Shown piece by piece: positions 45,891 to 64,000 of a stretch of 64,000 nt of DNA (position 1 is the stretch's first letter; each line of letters starts with the position of its first letter). Both the position numbers and the translations under genes were made by a program. The notes below the pieces were generated by a model. That model searched no databases. It had not been told where the DNA came from and saw only the letters and a list, made by a program, of their open reading frames with translations. The DNA is taken from contig OW569385.1 of NCBI GenBank assembly GCA_937625935.1, positions 365,639-429,638 on the forward strand, in the 5' to 3' direction. The stretch is from Tetramitus jugosus. Lineage: Eukaryota; Heterolobosea; Eutetramitea; Acrasida; Vahlkampfiidae.

Positions 45891-46231
45891 CTCTCGGTGA
45901 GTGATGTTTGTGTTGTTTTGTAGTTTGTGTGGTTTGGGTTTGCCCTGTCCTGATTTTGATCGAATTTGGTGAAATCCCTCGAGATACCCTGTTTTGGATT
46001 GGTGTAGAATATGGCAACTTGTCTTAGAATAACACACGACATCTTTCGCGAGAACACCGATTGAAGCAATAGATTTCGTTCATGAAACTTTCGCTGTACG
46101 AAACAAGTTATTCTTTTCCTGTGACGGAAAGTGGTTTGCTATATGAATGCATGACGAAAAGAGAAACAAGGAAGGAGGATTAATTTCATGGTGGTTCTTG
46201 CAAATGCTGTGTCTGCAACAGAATTATATTT

Positions 46232-58083: not shown

Positions 58084-58952
58084 TCAACAAAAGCTGAACG
58101 AAGCAATGAGATGAATCGTGTTGAATGTAACTATTGTATTAGGGTAACCAATGTTGATGTAACAGAACATCAAGAAGATGAGATTGTATTCATCATTGCT
58201 GTATACGTCCACATACGCAACGTCATGTGCTGATAGTTGTACTTCATCATAAGCATCACGATTATGCCAACGCCAGAATACTCTTAATGTAAAGACTCCT
58301 TGAGTATCGAACGTATAAATGTTTGTTGTTTCCGACTCTCTGAGCTTGACTGGTTCCTCTATACCATACTTTGTCAATTCAATAGTGATGTATTCTCTTG
58401 CTTGTCTGGTAGTACACTAGCTCCAGTATAACTCTTGTTTACTACTGTAATACCATCATGCTTAGAATAGATCTCTGTTGACTCTTCACATCTGGCAACT
58501 ATACCACTAGGACTGATCACTCTCATGTTTCCATCTAATAGTTGTATACCAATGTCATGAGGAGTCAAGTTAATGTACTGCATTGATCTTGGCTTATATA
58601 GTTCATGTCTCACGTCTTCATCCAATCCATACTCTACTAGACTTGACCATTCTTTAGCTAGAACAACATTTGCCCAACCTTGACAATCAAATCCAGTATC
58701 ATCACATGATGATTCAAAGTAGAAATAGAGACCAGACTGTAATTTACCTACTACATTCCATGATTCCTCGTCTTTGGTTCCATTGTGGAAAAAATATACT
58801 TCTGTAATAGTATCTGGATCGAAAGAGAAACTTACTGCATCAACAACCCATTTAACCTCCAGATCATCTGGTTCGTATTCAAACCCATAGAAATCAAAGT
58901 CATTCCTGAAGTTATCAATGATGTTTGGAGGTAGAGTGATAATGTCTTTCAT
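58084..58952 (-). CDS. Composite protein with phage/bacteria-like motifs, one frame change
   Basis: The ATG at 58952 opens a 192-codon frame with YEPDDLEVKWVVDAVSFSFD, GLYFYFESSCDDTGFDCQGW (about residues 75-95) and YINLTPHDIGIQLLDGNMRV with ISPSGIVARCEES (about 135-168). It stops at 58,374-58,376. The next frame overlaps and continues AREYITIELTKYGIEEPVKL, then FTLRVFWRWHNRDAYDEVQL to 58084; a missing base near 58,400 would join them (about 290 aa). [FY]INLTPH-x-I and PSG-x-VAR are motifs I associate with small phage and bacterial proteins, and TGFDCQG with prokaryotic or viral hypotheticals. Function unknown. Only 24 nt separate it from the small ORF upstream on the same strand. Confidence 0.5.
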
Positions 58953-59153: not shown

Positions 59154-59218
59154 GTTCTTGTTTCGTTTTGTTTACTTATGATTACAGATCTTACATGCAC
59201 ACTTATCACAGGGTGGAG

Positions 59219-59280
59219 TTTGGGTTTGGGTTTGGGGACTCATTGCTTACATATACCAGATCAGGGGTTGGGTTTGGGTT
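59219..59280 (+). repeat. Interstitial telomere-like repeats
   Basis: Two clusters of TTTGGG-type units in the same orientation as the chromosome-end repeat: three units plus one G at 59,219-59,237 (TTTGGG x3, then G), and GGGG-TTGGG-TTTGGG-TT at 59,264-59,280. Between them are 26 nt of non-repeat. They lie 4.0 kb inside the terminal array and mark the inner border of the two-gene recombinase module. Confidence 0.85.
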
Positions 59281-59906
59281 ATCACGTAAGCCATGGCCCT
59301 TTTGACTCTGGAGCAAACAACAACTCAATCTCTCGATGGAGATCCTTTGTCATTTGTCCTCTAGATCTATGTTTAAGCTTTCATTCCGTTCATTGTTCAT
59401 GATTTATGAATTCAGATCCCAACCATCGTTTGAACAGGGTGAATGTTCAACAAAACTAAAAAGAAAAACAAACAAAAAGATCATTGGGTATGTTTTTATT
59501 CAACAAAATGTTTTTGATAGTCACTCAATAACTTTCTTCCCTTGACTGCGAGCGAACGCTTCTCAAACCCTTGTCGAGACTGTGGCACAAGTGGATTGGT
59601 ATGTGAGTTTTTGTCTTCATTTCACACACGTTATTCACACACAGTTCGTATGAAAAATTATAGGCGAAACTCAAAAGAGTGAAACGTGAACGTGTGGCCA
59701 AAAAGTGGTCAGACATGAGAAACGTGAACGTGTGACCAAAAGGAGGTCAAACAAGAGAAACGTGAACGTTTAGCAAAGAAAGTACTTTCACACACTAGTA
59801 AACAAAATCTTTCAACAAAAACAAACAACAACACAAGCAAATAAAAAATTGTATGTACATTTGTTGTTTCTTCAACCAACACGCTAACACAACATCCAAT
59901 AGAGTC
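59281..59906. other. Subtelomeric spacer upstream of the recombinase module
   Basis: About 626 bp without a credible gene. It holds the 38-bp tandem repeat (listed separately) and, from about 59,800, the A/C-rich leader of ORF1 (CTTTCAACAAAAACAAACAAC). Short open frames here are not protein-like. Confidence 0.5.
59681..59776 (+). repeat. 38-bp tandem repeat, about 2.5 copies
   Basis: GAAACGTGAACGTG begins at 59,681, 59,719 and 59,757, exactly 38 nt apart. The first two units share GAAACGTGAACGTGTG-[AG]-CCAAAA with small changes after it; the third diverges after GAAACGTGAACGTT. Each unit contains a GTGAACGT near-palindrome. It sits about 130 nt before the ORF1 leader and could be a recombinase or regulator binding array; that is inference. 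Confidence 0.8.
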
Positions 59907-60818
59907 ATGGAAAATTCAACTACTCTACCTTGTATCCTTTCTCCATCACTTGAGTCTGTACTTCCACACACCAACGGTACAATAAAAGCTTGCGTTATTA
60001 TCACAAGGGACGAGATAGGGCTCCACATCCATGATGATGTAGAAAATCCTGTGCTGGTACTCCAAGCAAAACTGGATCAAGAAAAACAGGACAACTCACA
60101 ACTTCAAAACAAGTTGAAGGAAGCAAAAGACACAATCCTAAAGAAGAATCAAGAAATTTCCTCACTTCAAGAACAATGCGAAAGACTCAGTGCTCAAGTG
60201 GGTCCAGATGATGCAACTAAAAAAACCCTAGCATGGTTACAGAAAGCCCTCTTCAAACTCGACACCAATGGAGTTGTGACCGAAACCAGTACCCAGGTTA
60301 AAAATTTGGCTTCATTACCGGACGAAGAGTTTGAATCTTTGACCAAGACCATTGATCATGTTGCGTGTATGCGCTACGCCATACGCAAGAAGCAAACAAG
60401 GAAAGAAGGACAAGAACTATTCAAGGCCATCAAGGCAAGAGATCCTGTGGGTTCCGAAATCAATTCCTTCTCAAGGGAGATTCGGATCGGAGAATTCTTA
60501 GTGAATCTCACCTATGCCTACAATAAGGAATGTTCAGCTATGGAGATGTCATCCATATTGAGAAACAACACCATTTTGGTCCAGGAGTTAGAAGATCTGG
60601 AAAGGCTCCCCTTTTGGATTATCTCCAAATATAAACCAGCCACCATGGATACCTACATTAAACAAGACCTTTGGACTATAGATGGAGTAGCAGCGATGAT
60701 GTGTGATATTTTACGCAGAATTCGAGTTACAGCAACCGAATCCCCAAAGAACAACAAGAGGACTGGACCTACTGGTTCATCGTCAAATGGGACAAGAAAA
60801 AAACAACGCAACAACTGA
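59907..60818 (+). CDS. ORF1 of subtelomeric recombinase module: coiled-coil protein
   Basis: A 303-residue protein from MENSTTLPCILSPSLES (an ATG 18 codons upstream adds an unnatural Cys/Phe-rich start). Residues about 45-100 form a coiled coil (LVLQAKLDQEKQDNSQLQNK, then LKEAKDTILKKNQEISSLQE). A globular helical region follows (about 110-280: KTLAWLQKALFKLDTNGVVT, ELFKAIKARDPVGSEINSFS, GEFLVNLTYAYNKECSAMEM, LPFWIISKYKPATMDTYIKQ). The tail is basic (NNKRTGPTGSSSNGTRKKQR), perhaps nuclear or DNA-binding. I do not recognise the family. Its stop is 29 nt from the start of the tyrosine recombinase, same strand, which suggests functional linkage, for example an accessory DNA-binding or oligomerisation factor. 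Confidence 0.75.
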   Translation: MENSTTLPCILSPSLESVLPHTNGTIKACVIITRDEIGLHIHDDVENPVLVLQAKLDQEKQDNSQLQNKLKEAKDTILKKNQEISSLQEQCERLSAQVGPDDATKKTLAWLQKALFKLDTNGVVTETSTQVKNLASLPDEEFESLTKTIDHVACMRYAIRKKQTRKEGQELFKAIKARDPVGSEINSFSREIRIGEFLVNLTYAYNKECSAMEMSSILRNNTILVQELEDLERLPFWIISKYKPATMDTYIKQDLWTIDGVAAMMCDILRRIRVTATESPKNNKRTGPTGSSSNGTRKKQRNN

Positions 60819-60847
60819 GTGGTAATTTAACTTGCAAACAACCAACA

Positions 60848-63193
60848 ATGACAACCATAGAGGTTGAATACACTAGCTATCTGAATAAAATAGAAGCTTC
60901 ACCTGTTCATCCTCTGGTTGCAAGTGGATTCATATCTATTGATGAGTCAGTGGAGAGCCAATGTTTGGACGGAACAGCCATGGAGGATATTGATATTGAG
61001 TTGGCCACACTACTTGGAGGTAGAGCTAAGCAGTTAAAACAAAAAAGAATAACAGATGAAGTGATAGTCGAACCAATCAAGAGAATGGAGAAGCATAAGG
61101 AGGAACAGGACTTCTGCAGGCAAGTCACTGTAAACCTAGTAGAAACTCAATCATTGGACAGGCAGATGGAAGAGTTGATTAATATTATGCAACTCTCTCA
61201 AGCTCCTGGTACCAAGCTTGTTCAAGATTATGCTTGGAGGAGTTGGATGGGGTGGTTAGAACAACAAAAGCAAACTCATGAAGAGTTGAAGACGATTGAC
61301 CATTACAACCCCGGTAAGCATGTAGTTGGGCTCTATCTGCTACACATGAGGGTGCTCTATCAGTACAGTCATAGTACTGTGGTGAATTGTTTCTGGAATC
61401 AGCTGTGCGCTGTCCTCAAAGAGGAAAGAGGAATTGATTTGAAGAAGGAGATGGGAGAGTTTATCAAGAAGTTGTTCCGAGCCTTAATCAGGAAGTATGG
61501 AAACTCAAAGTTTAAGGTTTTCCCACTGTTGAATCACGATTTAGCAAGATGGCAACGAGCCCTATCCAAGAAGGACAATAGAGAGCCTCAAGTGAGATTG
61601 AGAGCAATTATCATGTTTGGCCGGCATGTTGGTTGGAGAGGGGATACTTTGTCCTATATGAAGCTGAAAGATATGACATTTACCTCTGTGAAGAGTGATG
61701 AATATACCTACTTGGTAGTTCAAAATGTTGGATACAAGAACAAGGGTATAGGTGGTCAGGAGCTTCGCAACACAGTGTATGGATCAAGTGATTTCAATGA
61801 GTGTCCCGTTTTTGCTCTATTATGGTATCTATTTCACATGAGAGGTGTGTTCGAGGCTGAATCACTCCAAGATATGATTGATCGGAACAAATTTACTTTG
61901 AAAACTGGTGCTCAAGAAGAATATCTATTCACACAGGCAACAACGGAGCAACCCATGACTTCTAAAGATATGTCGAACCTGATGAAAACAAGTTCTGCTG
62001 AGATACTCAAATGTCGATACACAATGAGATCACTAAGGAGTGGCCATATTTGCCAAGCATTGCTCACAAGCATTTTACGGTACGGTATTATAAAAGATAG
62101 CATAAGACAAGCAATTAAGAGACATGTCGGGTGGAGCAATGATGAATCAATTGATGCCTATGAGCGAATGTCAATTTTTTGCTCACAAAATGTTGCAAGC
62201 TTGCAAGATTTACAGCAACATACAGGGGCTCAAAATATTGTGAAAGCTTTCTGGCAGATGGATTCAGATCAACAATCAACACCCACCACACCAGTACGAA
62301 CAACGTTGAGGGAGATACGAAGATCCAGCTCCCACCCAAAAAAATCACCCTCCTCTGTTAAAAAGTTTGTTTCGTTTCGTCAAGTAAAGAAGAGAATTTT
62401 AGAACTGAGGCCAAACCTCAGCAAAGCATGTCGTGAAGAGGACGAGAAAACCGTAGGAAAAAATCACCAAACAACATGGTCTGTCTATCATCAGAAGTAT
62501 ATTAAGCAGTGGGCAGAGAATTCTAACGAATGCCAAGAAGTGCTGAATGGAAATCAAGAATATATCAAAGGCAGTACCGACCAGAGGTCATCTATTCTAC
62601 TGAATGTTGGGAAGAGTATGTTCGTTAAACTTGCTGTTGGTCCTAAACGAGATGAATACATTAACAAGGTGTTCTATGAAGACTATGCTTCAAAGAAAAA
62701 CCCAAATGAAAGTGGGAGCGCAGCGAAACGTTTTCTTCCTAGAGGGATGAAAAGAAAACTTGATTTAACGTGGGAAAAGGATGTTGAACAGCCCGAACTC
62801 AAATTTCATACTCCAAACAGGATTACAATACCAGAAACAACCAACGACAACCTAGATTCCTTTTCATTGTCTCAACTCGTTACTCAAGAGTTTGATGAAA
62901 TGGACACCGCAACAATGAATAGTATGATTGAGGATTATTGGAACAGAAATGAAGACAATCAACATGGTATTTCTTTTGCTTACTCATCAACCAACACAAG
63001 TCTGATGGATAATGATCCAAGTTTACTCTGTCCGAATGTGTTCAATCAAGAAACTGAAGGAATAGTGACGCAAGACACGAACAATCAGATAGAAGAAACC
63101 AAAACGAAAGACACAAACCAGCCAAGAGGAGATGAAGAAAATATAAAGAAAGAGAGGGAGTATTTGTTGTCCTTAGACTTTGAATCATTGTGA
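60848..63193 (+). CDS. ORF2: tyrosine-recombinase-like protein (Crypton-like)
   Basis: A 781-residue intronless protein. The core-binding-like part (about 115-235) includes YAWRSWMGWLEQQKQTHEEL and HMRVLYQYSHSTVVNCFWNQ. The catalytic domain (about 240-450) shows IIMFGRHVGWRGDTLSYMKL with Arg264 (box I), VVQNVGYKNKGIGGQ with Lys297/Lys299 on the beta hairpin, YTMRSLRSGHICQALLTSIL with Arg397 (box II; the usual His three residues before this Arg is a Ser-containing position), IKRHVGWSNDESIDAYERMS with Trp429 at the His/Trp site and Tyr438 as nucleophile. GW..S.....Y is typical of eukaryotic YR elements (DIRS, Crypton). The C-terminal 330 residues hold a second basic domain (FRQVKKRILELRPNLSKACR, TTWSVYHQKYIKQWAENSNE) and an acidic tail. 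It ends 107 nt before the telomere. Confidence 0.82.
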   Translation: MTTIEVEYTSYLNKIEASPVHPLVASGFISIDESVESQCLDGTAMEDIDIELATLLGGRAKQLKQKRITDEVIVEPIKRMEKHKEEQDFCRQVTVNLVETQSLDRQMEELINIMQLSQAPGTKLVQDYAWRSWMGWLEQQKQTHEELKTIDHYNPGKHVVGLYLLHMRVLYQYSHSTVVNCFWNQLCAVLKEERGIDLKKEMGEFIKKLFRALIRKYGNSKFKVFPLLNHDLARWQRALSKKDNREPQVRLRAIIMFGRHVGWRGDTLSYMKLKDMTFTSVKSDEYTYLVVQNVGYKNKGIGGQELRNTVYGSSDFNECPVFALLWYLFHMRGVFEAESLQDMIDRNKFTLKTGAQEEYLFTQATTEQPMTSKDMSNLMKTSSAEILKCRYTMRSLRSGHICQALLTSILRYGIIKDSIRQAIKRHVGWSNDESIDAYERMSIFCSQNVASLQDLQQHTGAQNIVKAFWQMDSDQQSTPTTPVRTTLREIRRSSSHPKKSPSSVKKFVSFRQVKKRILELRPNLSKACREEDEKTVGKNHQTTWSVYHQKYIKQWAENSNECQEVLNGNQEYIKGSTDQRSSILLNVGKSMFVKLAVGPKRDEYINKVFYEDYASKKNPNESGSAAKRFLPRGMKRKLDLTWEKDVEQPELKFHTPNRITIPETTNDNLDSFSLSQLVTQEFDEMDTATMNSMIEDYWNRNEDNQHGISFAYSSTNTSLMDNDPSLLCPNVFNQETEGIVTQDTNNQIEETKTKDTNQPRGDEENIKKEREYLLSLDFESL

Positions 63194-63300
63194 GAAGGAC
63201 AACCAAACATTTTATGCATAAATATACATCACAATAAGATCATGAATCATTTTTCCGAAACAATTTTTGAACGAACACAAGTCACTCTTCAATTTTCCGA
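63194..63300. other. Spacer between recombinase gene and telomere
   Basis: 107 nt of unique AT-rich sequence, with an AATAAGATC-like stretch near 63,233 that could serve 3' end formation. No other subtelomeric repeat intervenes between the gene and the terminal array. Confidence 0.6.
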
Positions 63301-64000
63301 TTTGGGTTTGGGTTTGGGTTTGGGTTTGGGTTTGGGTTTGGGTTTGGGTTTGGGTTTGGGTTTGGGTTTGGGTTTGGGTTTGGGTTTGGGTTTGGGTTTG
63401 GGTTTGGGTTTGGGTTTGGGTTTGGGTTTGGGTTTGGGTTTGGGTTTGGGTTTGGGTTTGGGTTTGGGTTTGGGTTTGGGTTTGGGTTTGGGTTTGGGTT
63501 TGGGTTTGGGTTTGGGTTTGGGTTTGGGTTTGGGTTTGGGTTTGGGTTTGGGTTTGGGTTTGGGTTTGGGTTTGGGTTTGGGTTTGGGTTTGGGTTTGGG
63601 TTTGGGTTTGGGTTTGGGTTTGGGTTTGGGTTTGGGTTTGGGTTTGGGTTTGGGTTTGGGTTTGGGTTTGGGTTTGGGTTTGGGTTTGGGTTTGGGTTTG
63701 GGTTTGGGTTTGGGTTTGGGTTTGGGTTTGGGTTTGGGTTTGGGTTTGGGTTTGGGTTTGGGTTTGGGTTTGGGTTTGGGTTTGGGTTTGGGTTTGGGTT
63801 TGGGTTTGGGTTTGGGTTTGGGTTTGGGTTTGGGTTTGGGTTTGGGTTTGGGTTTGGGTTTGGGTTTGGGTTTGGGTTTGGGTTTGGGTTTGGGTTTGGG
63901 TTTGGGTTTGGGTTTGGGTTTGGGTTTGGGTTTGGGTTTGGGTTTGGGTTTGGGTTTGGGTTTGGGTTTGGGTTTGGGTTGGGTTTGGGTTTGGGTTTGG
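63301..64000 (+). repeat. Telomeric repeat array (TTTGGG)n
   Basis: 700 nt of perfect TTTGGG hexamer from 63,301, about 116 copies, with one 5-nt variant (TTGGG) at 63,979-63,983. The G-rich strand runs 5' to 3' toward the right end of the window, the orientation of a right-hand chromosome end. It reaches the last base, so the true array may be longer. Confidence 0.96.

Follow-up and report, generated by a model that had tools for sequence, protein, structure and literature searches.

Here, we describe a small two-gene segment that lies at the right-hand end of contig C42 in Tetramitus jugosus, analysed within a window of 64,000 nucleotides (contig OW569385.1, positions 365,639 to 429,638) that closes this contig of 429,638 bp in a genome of 26.35 Mb and 56 contigs. 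The segment, hereafter the element, occupies 59281..63300 of the window (4,020 bp; all features of the window are on the plus strand unless noted otherwise) and has telomeric tracts on either side. It opens with a 5' terminal motif of about 25 bp (59281..59305), carries two intact open reading frames (ORFs) transcribed toward the telomere, namely ORF1 (59853..60818, 321 amino acids) and ORF2 (60848..63193, 781 amino acids), and closes with the 3' terminus CAATTTTCCGA (63290..63300), which has the identical position in the related elements at the left ends of contigs C41 and C15 (C41L and C15L; R denotes right ends). A perfect array adjoins it, and the terminal (TTTGGG)n array fills 63301..64000 with 99% matches. 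A TTTGGG-flanked 4.0-kb segment with two intact frames directed to the telomere is what an earlier sequence-only reading of this DNA had described, and in this respect it was right. The inner array that it had noted is also present, in the form of two tracts, 59218..59237 (20 nt) and 59264..59280 (17 nt), of which the second begins with the irregular unit GGGGTTGGG and directly precedes the element. The first tract is probably an older healed end, and the 26 bp separating the two (59238..59263) may represent the beginning of a previous element that was truncated. In the window, TTTGGGTTTGGG occurs 115 times, twice at 59219-59236 and 113 times in the terminal array, against 0.05 occurrences expected from shuffles. 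The longest run in TTTGGG phase within positions 1-59000 is a single one of 12 nt (45931-45942), and runs of at least 13 nt were found neither on either strand of these positions nor in 20 simulated sequences of the same length. A 38-bp tandem repeat (59681..59769), likewise noted earlier, is real in the window; it was dropped as a family feature since only two of the seven related 5' regions scanned, those of the window and C1L, have it.

ORF2 was identified as a tyrosine recombinase (YR) by motif alignment and fold comparison, as sequence-only searches gave nothing significant. Residues R264, K297/K299, R394xxR397, W429 and Y438 are invariant in all 17 aligned rows (C50R left out), and ORF2 thereby displays the active-site pattern R - K - (H/K/R)xxR - (H/W) - Y. 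The spacing of the active-site residues of YRs is known from Cre, and arginine is tolerated in box II. For amino acids 111-461, the structure model (predicted local distance difference test, pLDDT, 76; predicted template modelling score, pTM, 0.65) has YRs as its top Foldseek and VIA matches, and the predicted fold matches Cre and Xer; topoisomerase I and Ndc10 rank below the YRs among its fold relatives. An earlier model of ORF2 was weaker (pLDDT 55.6), and YRs nonetheless fill its first 40 Foldseek rows. Two points weigh against the assignment: arginine stands in place of the usual histidine of the HxxR motif, and no significant YR match was obtained in Pfam, PDB-sequence or PHROG searches, the best Pfam hint for the ORF2 family being PF13495 (E 0.019, 2 of 17 members). 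Alignment and model together indicate that ORF2 is a YR, as the earlier reading had proposed, and strand exchange is its predicted activity. The Crypton-type domains GCR1_C and DUF3504 gave no Pfam match in the 17 family members at E up to 10, and two peptide patterns retrieved no ORF2 relatives from viral contigs or from prokaryote genomes. In the copy at the right end of C50 (L020), the YR frame is open and the RxxR box is absent, and for this reason that copy is probably inactive.

For ORF1, there are coiled-coil-like matches only and no Pfam family above cut-off; its product would be an accessory protein. The ratio of non-synonymous to synonymous substitution rates (dN/dS) is 0.128 for ORF2 between the window and C41L and 0.088 between the window and C15L, 0.16-0.18 for ORF1 and 0.21-0.24 for the remote YR family, values that are rough in every pair except window versus C41L ORF2, as dS exceeds 1 in all others. 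These ratios indicate that both genes are retained by purifying selection. Between the window and C41L, dS is 1.87 for ORF1 and 0.29 for ORF2, and this disagreement within one pair of copies indicates a recombination boundary between the two genes and that the copies are mosaics. At the left end of C41 (L010 1032-4355), ORF1 and ORF2 are fused in a single open frame of 1,107 amino acids; P0010, an ORF1 from another source that is near-identical by eye, stops before the YR. A set of 5.8 billion proteins holds at least eight relatives of ORF2 and at least three of ORF1; two from other sources (P0003 and P0004) run into stretches coded by TTTGGG-type telomere repeats, and P0011 and P0012, with 94-96% identity to parts of ORF1, are probably from other strains.

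Across the genome, the matches concentrate at contig ends. For ORF2, 35 of 37 matches lie no more than 12.5 kb from a contig end, and for ORF1 29 of 35. All nine ORF2 matches with at least 58% identity over at least 260 residues point to the telomere; in C35, a short and decayed match (68%, with stops) reads away from it, and remote matches (about 30% identity) read in either direction. Truncation is common among the YR copies. With five terminal motifs taken from related elements, 132 matches were obtained, 131 of them at contig ends and in a single orientation. Three of these motifs are 5' motifs free of TTTGGG (39, 9 and 22 matches, the 9 being those of the motif in the window), and 69 of their 70 matches are no farther than 20 kb from a contig end and on the strand pointing to the telomere. 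The two 3' terminus patterns (24 and 38 matches) were found at ends throughout, which they favour by construction because they include TTTGGG; 17 right-end motif matches were counted as ends from their high coordinate. The five markers occupy at least 83 of the 112 contig ends, a lower bound as mismatched or lost copies escape, and 96 of 112 when ends read directly or with ORF2 matches are added. At the right end of C14, which is exactly 555,000 bp long, a CTGTC terminus lies 67 bp from the contig end, and the contig therefore appears to break off within an element, with no telomere. The recurrence anticipated earlier was thus borne out, with the pair at several chromosome ends, related elements at most of them, one orientation and junctions at TTTGGG. 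We interpret the module as an entire member of a family of mobile elements that resides almost only at chromosome ends, with the host telomere repeat on both sides.

The organisation of these elements was read from the DNA of 37 merged segments, of which three are interior and most lie near ends, and of another 20 left ends selected by contig number. From inside outward, the common plan starts with older sequence that breaks off at an arbitrary position; 13-43 nt of TTTGGG tract come next, then the 5' terminus, body and 3' terminus of an element, beyond which follows either the telomere array or a further cut and tract. Every tract of at least 12 nt in the 37 segments points to the telomere, and the 20 further ends include one 12-nt TTTGGG run oriented oppositely. 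Complete elements measure about 0.15-4.2 kb, leaving aside a 5.1-kb inner stretch at C21R. The two-gene module thus recurs, as one family among several: gene-bearing elements are either of the ORF1-ORF2 type (4.0-4.2 kb; C42R, C41L and C15L) or YR-only (2.85 kb; C18R, C25R and C28R), some with the YR opposed to the outward direction, and in 20 other element stretches the longest ORF starting with methionine has 28-93 amino acids. A genome scan gave no RVT_1 match inside the complete YR elements C42R, C41L, C15L, C18R and C25R. The first 29-35 bp or so, the 5' terminus, are common to elements with and without a YR gene, which points to mobility acting on the termini. The hexamer phase is also fixed within each family, with GGGTT, TTTGG or TTTGGG before the 5' end and TTTGGG, TTGGG or TGGG after the 3' end. 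In the family of the window, Fam1, the 5' motif of about 25 bp is kept in seven copies although the sequence after it has diverged. YR-only elements have, close to their 5' end, a 26-bp near-palindrome (L021 1405-1430, L022 and L023 734-759, L028 and L036) that is possibly a recombinase binding site; it was matched exactly in 5 of 88 loci, two of them on the same contig, and was not found in Fam1 loci. At the left end of C12 (L078), an inverted element fragment that aligns in reverse orientation with C51R, C6L and C14L lies just inside a tract. Further inward in the window, a minus-strand ORF of 192 amino acids (58374-58952) has a sub-threshold Mu-transpos_C match (E 0.021).

The inner junctions bear on how the elements arrived. 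For 58 of 94 junctions, a relative exists elsewhere, and at 24 inner junctions (22 distinct) and five terminal ones (four distinct) that relative continues differently past the break. Among the 22 distinct inner breaks, irregular G-rich units (for example GGGTTGGG or GGGG) come before the regular TTTGGG in 14 by manual reading, as telomerase healing would leave, and TERT is encoded in the genome. The possibility raised earlier, that the segment was added at a healed end, gains support from these arbitrary breaks. A plain healed end occurs at C13, where ORF2 stops near residue 494 and is followed by a long array opening with GGGGTGTGGGTTGGG; the left and right ends of this contig agree at 100% across 3,867 bp, a stretch that takes in the truncated ORF2 and then telomere repeats. 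Terminal arrays differ in that 27 of 38 start at a terminus also found at another end, with no irregular units at their start, and eight start at a break or irregularly (for C50R, C21L and C3L, the irregular start was the sole criterion), the remaining three (C7L, C18R and C24L) being placed in neither class. Only one of 56 inner junctions, some of which are copies of one event (e.g. C13L/C13R and C6L/C22L), follows an intact terminus (C9L 842), which indicates that, with this exception, new elements sit on previously broken ends. The earlier suggestion that the inner array had been left to decay is not supported, and the reading of inner tracts as decayed long arrays was dropped: copy pairs with bodies 99.8-100% identical already have tracts of about 17-25 nt, and the tracts therefore look short from the start.

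Recent copies narrow down where the joining occurs. Near-identical bodies with different inner flanks are found at C28R/C25R (99.97% over 2,873 bp), C2L/C8L (99.8% over 997 bp) and C51R/C22L (98.8% over 1,215 bp). These pairs and C9L/C9R have just 11-12 nt of the pre-element tract in common, the inner part being specific to the recipient, and C6L/C22L have 21 nt in common; the joining therefore lies within a few telomere units. We propose, with a rough probability of 0.58, that the YR is the mobility enzyme of the family and that break-induced copying is a second route. The sequences show ends that broke inside an older element and bear TTTGGG at the break, in many cases preceded by irregular G-rich units, this short tract spanning 13-43 nt in total, as telomerase healing would leave it; a new element follows in fixed hexamer phase, its outer terminus mostly running into a perfect array. 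The element-encoded YR would recognise the element termini and perform the joining at TTTGGG, gene-less elements with the same termini would be mobilised in trans, and copies already established would in addition pass between ends through break-induced copying, a route that C6L/C22L suggests. A YR acting on termini would explain the 5' termini common to YR-bearing and YR-less elements, the conserved Fam1 5' end beside diverged sequence, the fixed hexamer phase and the persistence of YR genes; break-induced copying would explain the transfer of two layers at C6L/C22L, with no element enzyme needed.

Several observations weigh against this proposal. That the YR makes the joint is something we infer from sequence, not catalysis observed, and no pair of empty and filled sites was found at a standing telomere. 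TTTGGG, in direct orientation on both sides of the elements, may be target sequence, and the sites seen are all filled. All 56 inner tracts measure 13-43 nt, and recombinase insertion into a long array should give any length; long inner tracts were possibly lost by breakage. At eight of the 22 distinct inner breaks, manual reading gave no clear irregular unit (six plain regular repeats and two ambiguous cases). The YR is read toward the telomere in Fam1, C24L and C51R and away from it in C18R, C19L, C21R, C25R, C28R and C50R. One 5' motif match is interior (C44:79087, a CTGTC terminus), at what may be a former chromosome end. The two layers of C6L/C22L, 1,877 bp at 100% with different flanks, are explained by copying without a recombinase, and a reverse transcriptase (RT) gene is also present at several ends. 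Break-induced copying or a telomeric RT could make the joint instead of the YR.

The stronger of these alternatives, which we regard as possible and clearly less probable than the proposal above, is spread by recombination alone, in which a broken end with few repeats invades the short tract of another end and copies to the tip by break-induced replication (BIR), the YR being a passenger or having another job. Yeast Y' elements spread by such replication. At C6L/C22L two layers were transferred at 100% identity, and the near-identity of C28R/C25R, C2L/C8L and C51R/C22L starts within the tract, both in keeping with this account. The MoTeR paper reports, in its accessible text, a cycle of break, healing and BIR (PMC7367193). 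BIR would copy all distal layers, and C6L/C22L is the one two-layer case, the other recent pairs having one layer in common. BIR alone also leaves unexplained why YR-bearing and YR-less elements match only at their 5' termini, why about 25 bp are conserved at the Fam1 5' end beside diverged sequence, and why intact, diverged YR genes persist under selection.

Terminal retro-addition, an unlikely source of these ends, would have a broken TTTGGG end prime reverse transcription of element RNA, by an endonuclease-free Penelope- or terminon-like RT or by TERT, with the YR as cargo. An RT family with 19 genome matches, 17 near ends and two interior (C50), has the location that this requires; its copies include L070 485-2500 (left end of C3), C10:605306-607132 and others on C17, C9 and C48, those at C3L and C10R being identical over 609 amino acids. 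The RT reads inward at C3L, C17L, C9L, C10R, C9R and C48R, the last a presumed end, as terminal priming would give, and outward at C29R and C12R, which speaks against it. Short inner tracts are compatible with priming on a short overhang. The complete YR elements, however, have no RT, the outward reading of the Fam1 genes gives sense RNA of the wrong polarity, and the outer termini are for the most part precise, not truncated to varying extents. The motifs of the RT family resemble those of Penelope-like elements, a tentative label that is a weak point of the account. Rfam, run on 34 of 89 sources, also gave it no support, with no family at gathering cut-off in 14 sources and, at E up to 0.5 in 20 sources, two sub-cut-off matches taken as chance, hence none at cut-off in the 34.

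A host-domesticated recombinase with a telomere function in end protection or exchange, kept by host selection, would suit the presence of such elements at most ends and the purifying selection on ORF2, and is improbable in view of the many truncated YR copies and the frequency at ends of elements with no long ORF. Assembly artefact or chance TTTGGG runs can practically be dismissed: an assembler could produce the identical C13 ends, but 131 of 132 marker matches at ends in one orientation, the TTTGGG-type tails of relatives from other sources, and the shuffles and simulations all speak against it.

The telomere-dwelling mobile elements known are mostly retroelements, and the ends described here may instead be dressed by a DNA recombinase that takes the place of a reverse transcriptase. 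A family that is free of RT, encodes a recombinase and resides at most ends offers a natural setting in which to ask if telomere repeats can be the target of a YR, and if such elements damage ends, as MoTeRs do, or aid their repair. As breaks, first telomeric units and later additions are preserved in order, the turnover of ends can be reconstructed from one assembly. A bolder idea, which we consider doubtful, is repair and capping run by the recombinase, with telomerase seeding repeats at a broken end and a YR element, whether or not it has a gene of its own, then joined so that a full subtelomere is restored; if true, it would be an RT-free counterpart of HeT-A or terminons, operating alongside telomerase at most chromosome ends.

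HeT-A/TART and the Athena terminons of rotifers are RT-based elements added to broken or receding ends, resembling the present family in the place of addition and differing in the enzyme. The MoTeRs, telomeric retrotransposons of Magnaporthe, have short interstitial telomere tracts, truncation, de novo telomere addition and break-induced copying between ends in common with it, but they are retrotransposons, and the accessible text mentions no YR (PMC7367193). Cryptons, as described in the portions available, are YR-only DNA elements, with short terminal direct repeats in some groups and a described non-autonomous derivative, and are alike in using a YR without RT as mobility gene, although the same portions name no telomere-repeat target (PMC3212892); as no Crypton-type Pfam domain was found here, the family was not filed with them. 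In endogenous nimaviruses, a family of YRs is associated with insertion into telomere repeats, also without RT according to the available text, but these are crustacean virus genomes, of 300-360 kb in pemoniviruses, in contrast to at most 4.2 kb and zero to two genes here (PMC10871703). The earlier statement that no such two-gene system was described thus needs amending, as telomere-repeat YR elements are known from TATE (PMC6681497) and nimaviruses (PMC10871703); it stands insofar as no small RT-free ones were found in the accessible literature. Among the matches listed, with subscription journals thinly covered, no paper reported RT-free YR elements at protist telomeres, and the combination of RT-free, small, present at most ends and accompanied by gene-less followers was not found in the literature searched. 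The closest likeness, by description and not by comparison of YR sequences, is to TATE, the VIPER-like YR elements of kinetoplastids placed in the order DIRS, for which the accessible text reports a YR, tandem clusters at one relative hexamer position and a first ORF with no known domain (PMC6681497). The fixed position within the telomeric hexamer is found here per family. TATE also encodes RT/RNase H (PMC6681497), in contrast to the complete YR elements of T. jugosus, in which there is no RT; gene-less elements and layers of healed breaks are frequent in this genome. The best reading is of an RT-free, YR-encoding and telomere-bounded element family that occupies the niche of TATE without its RT.
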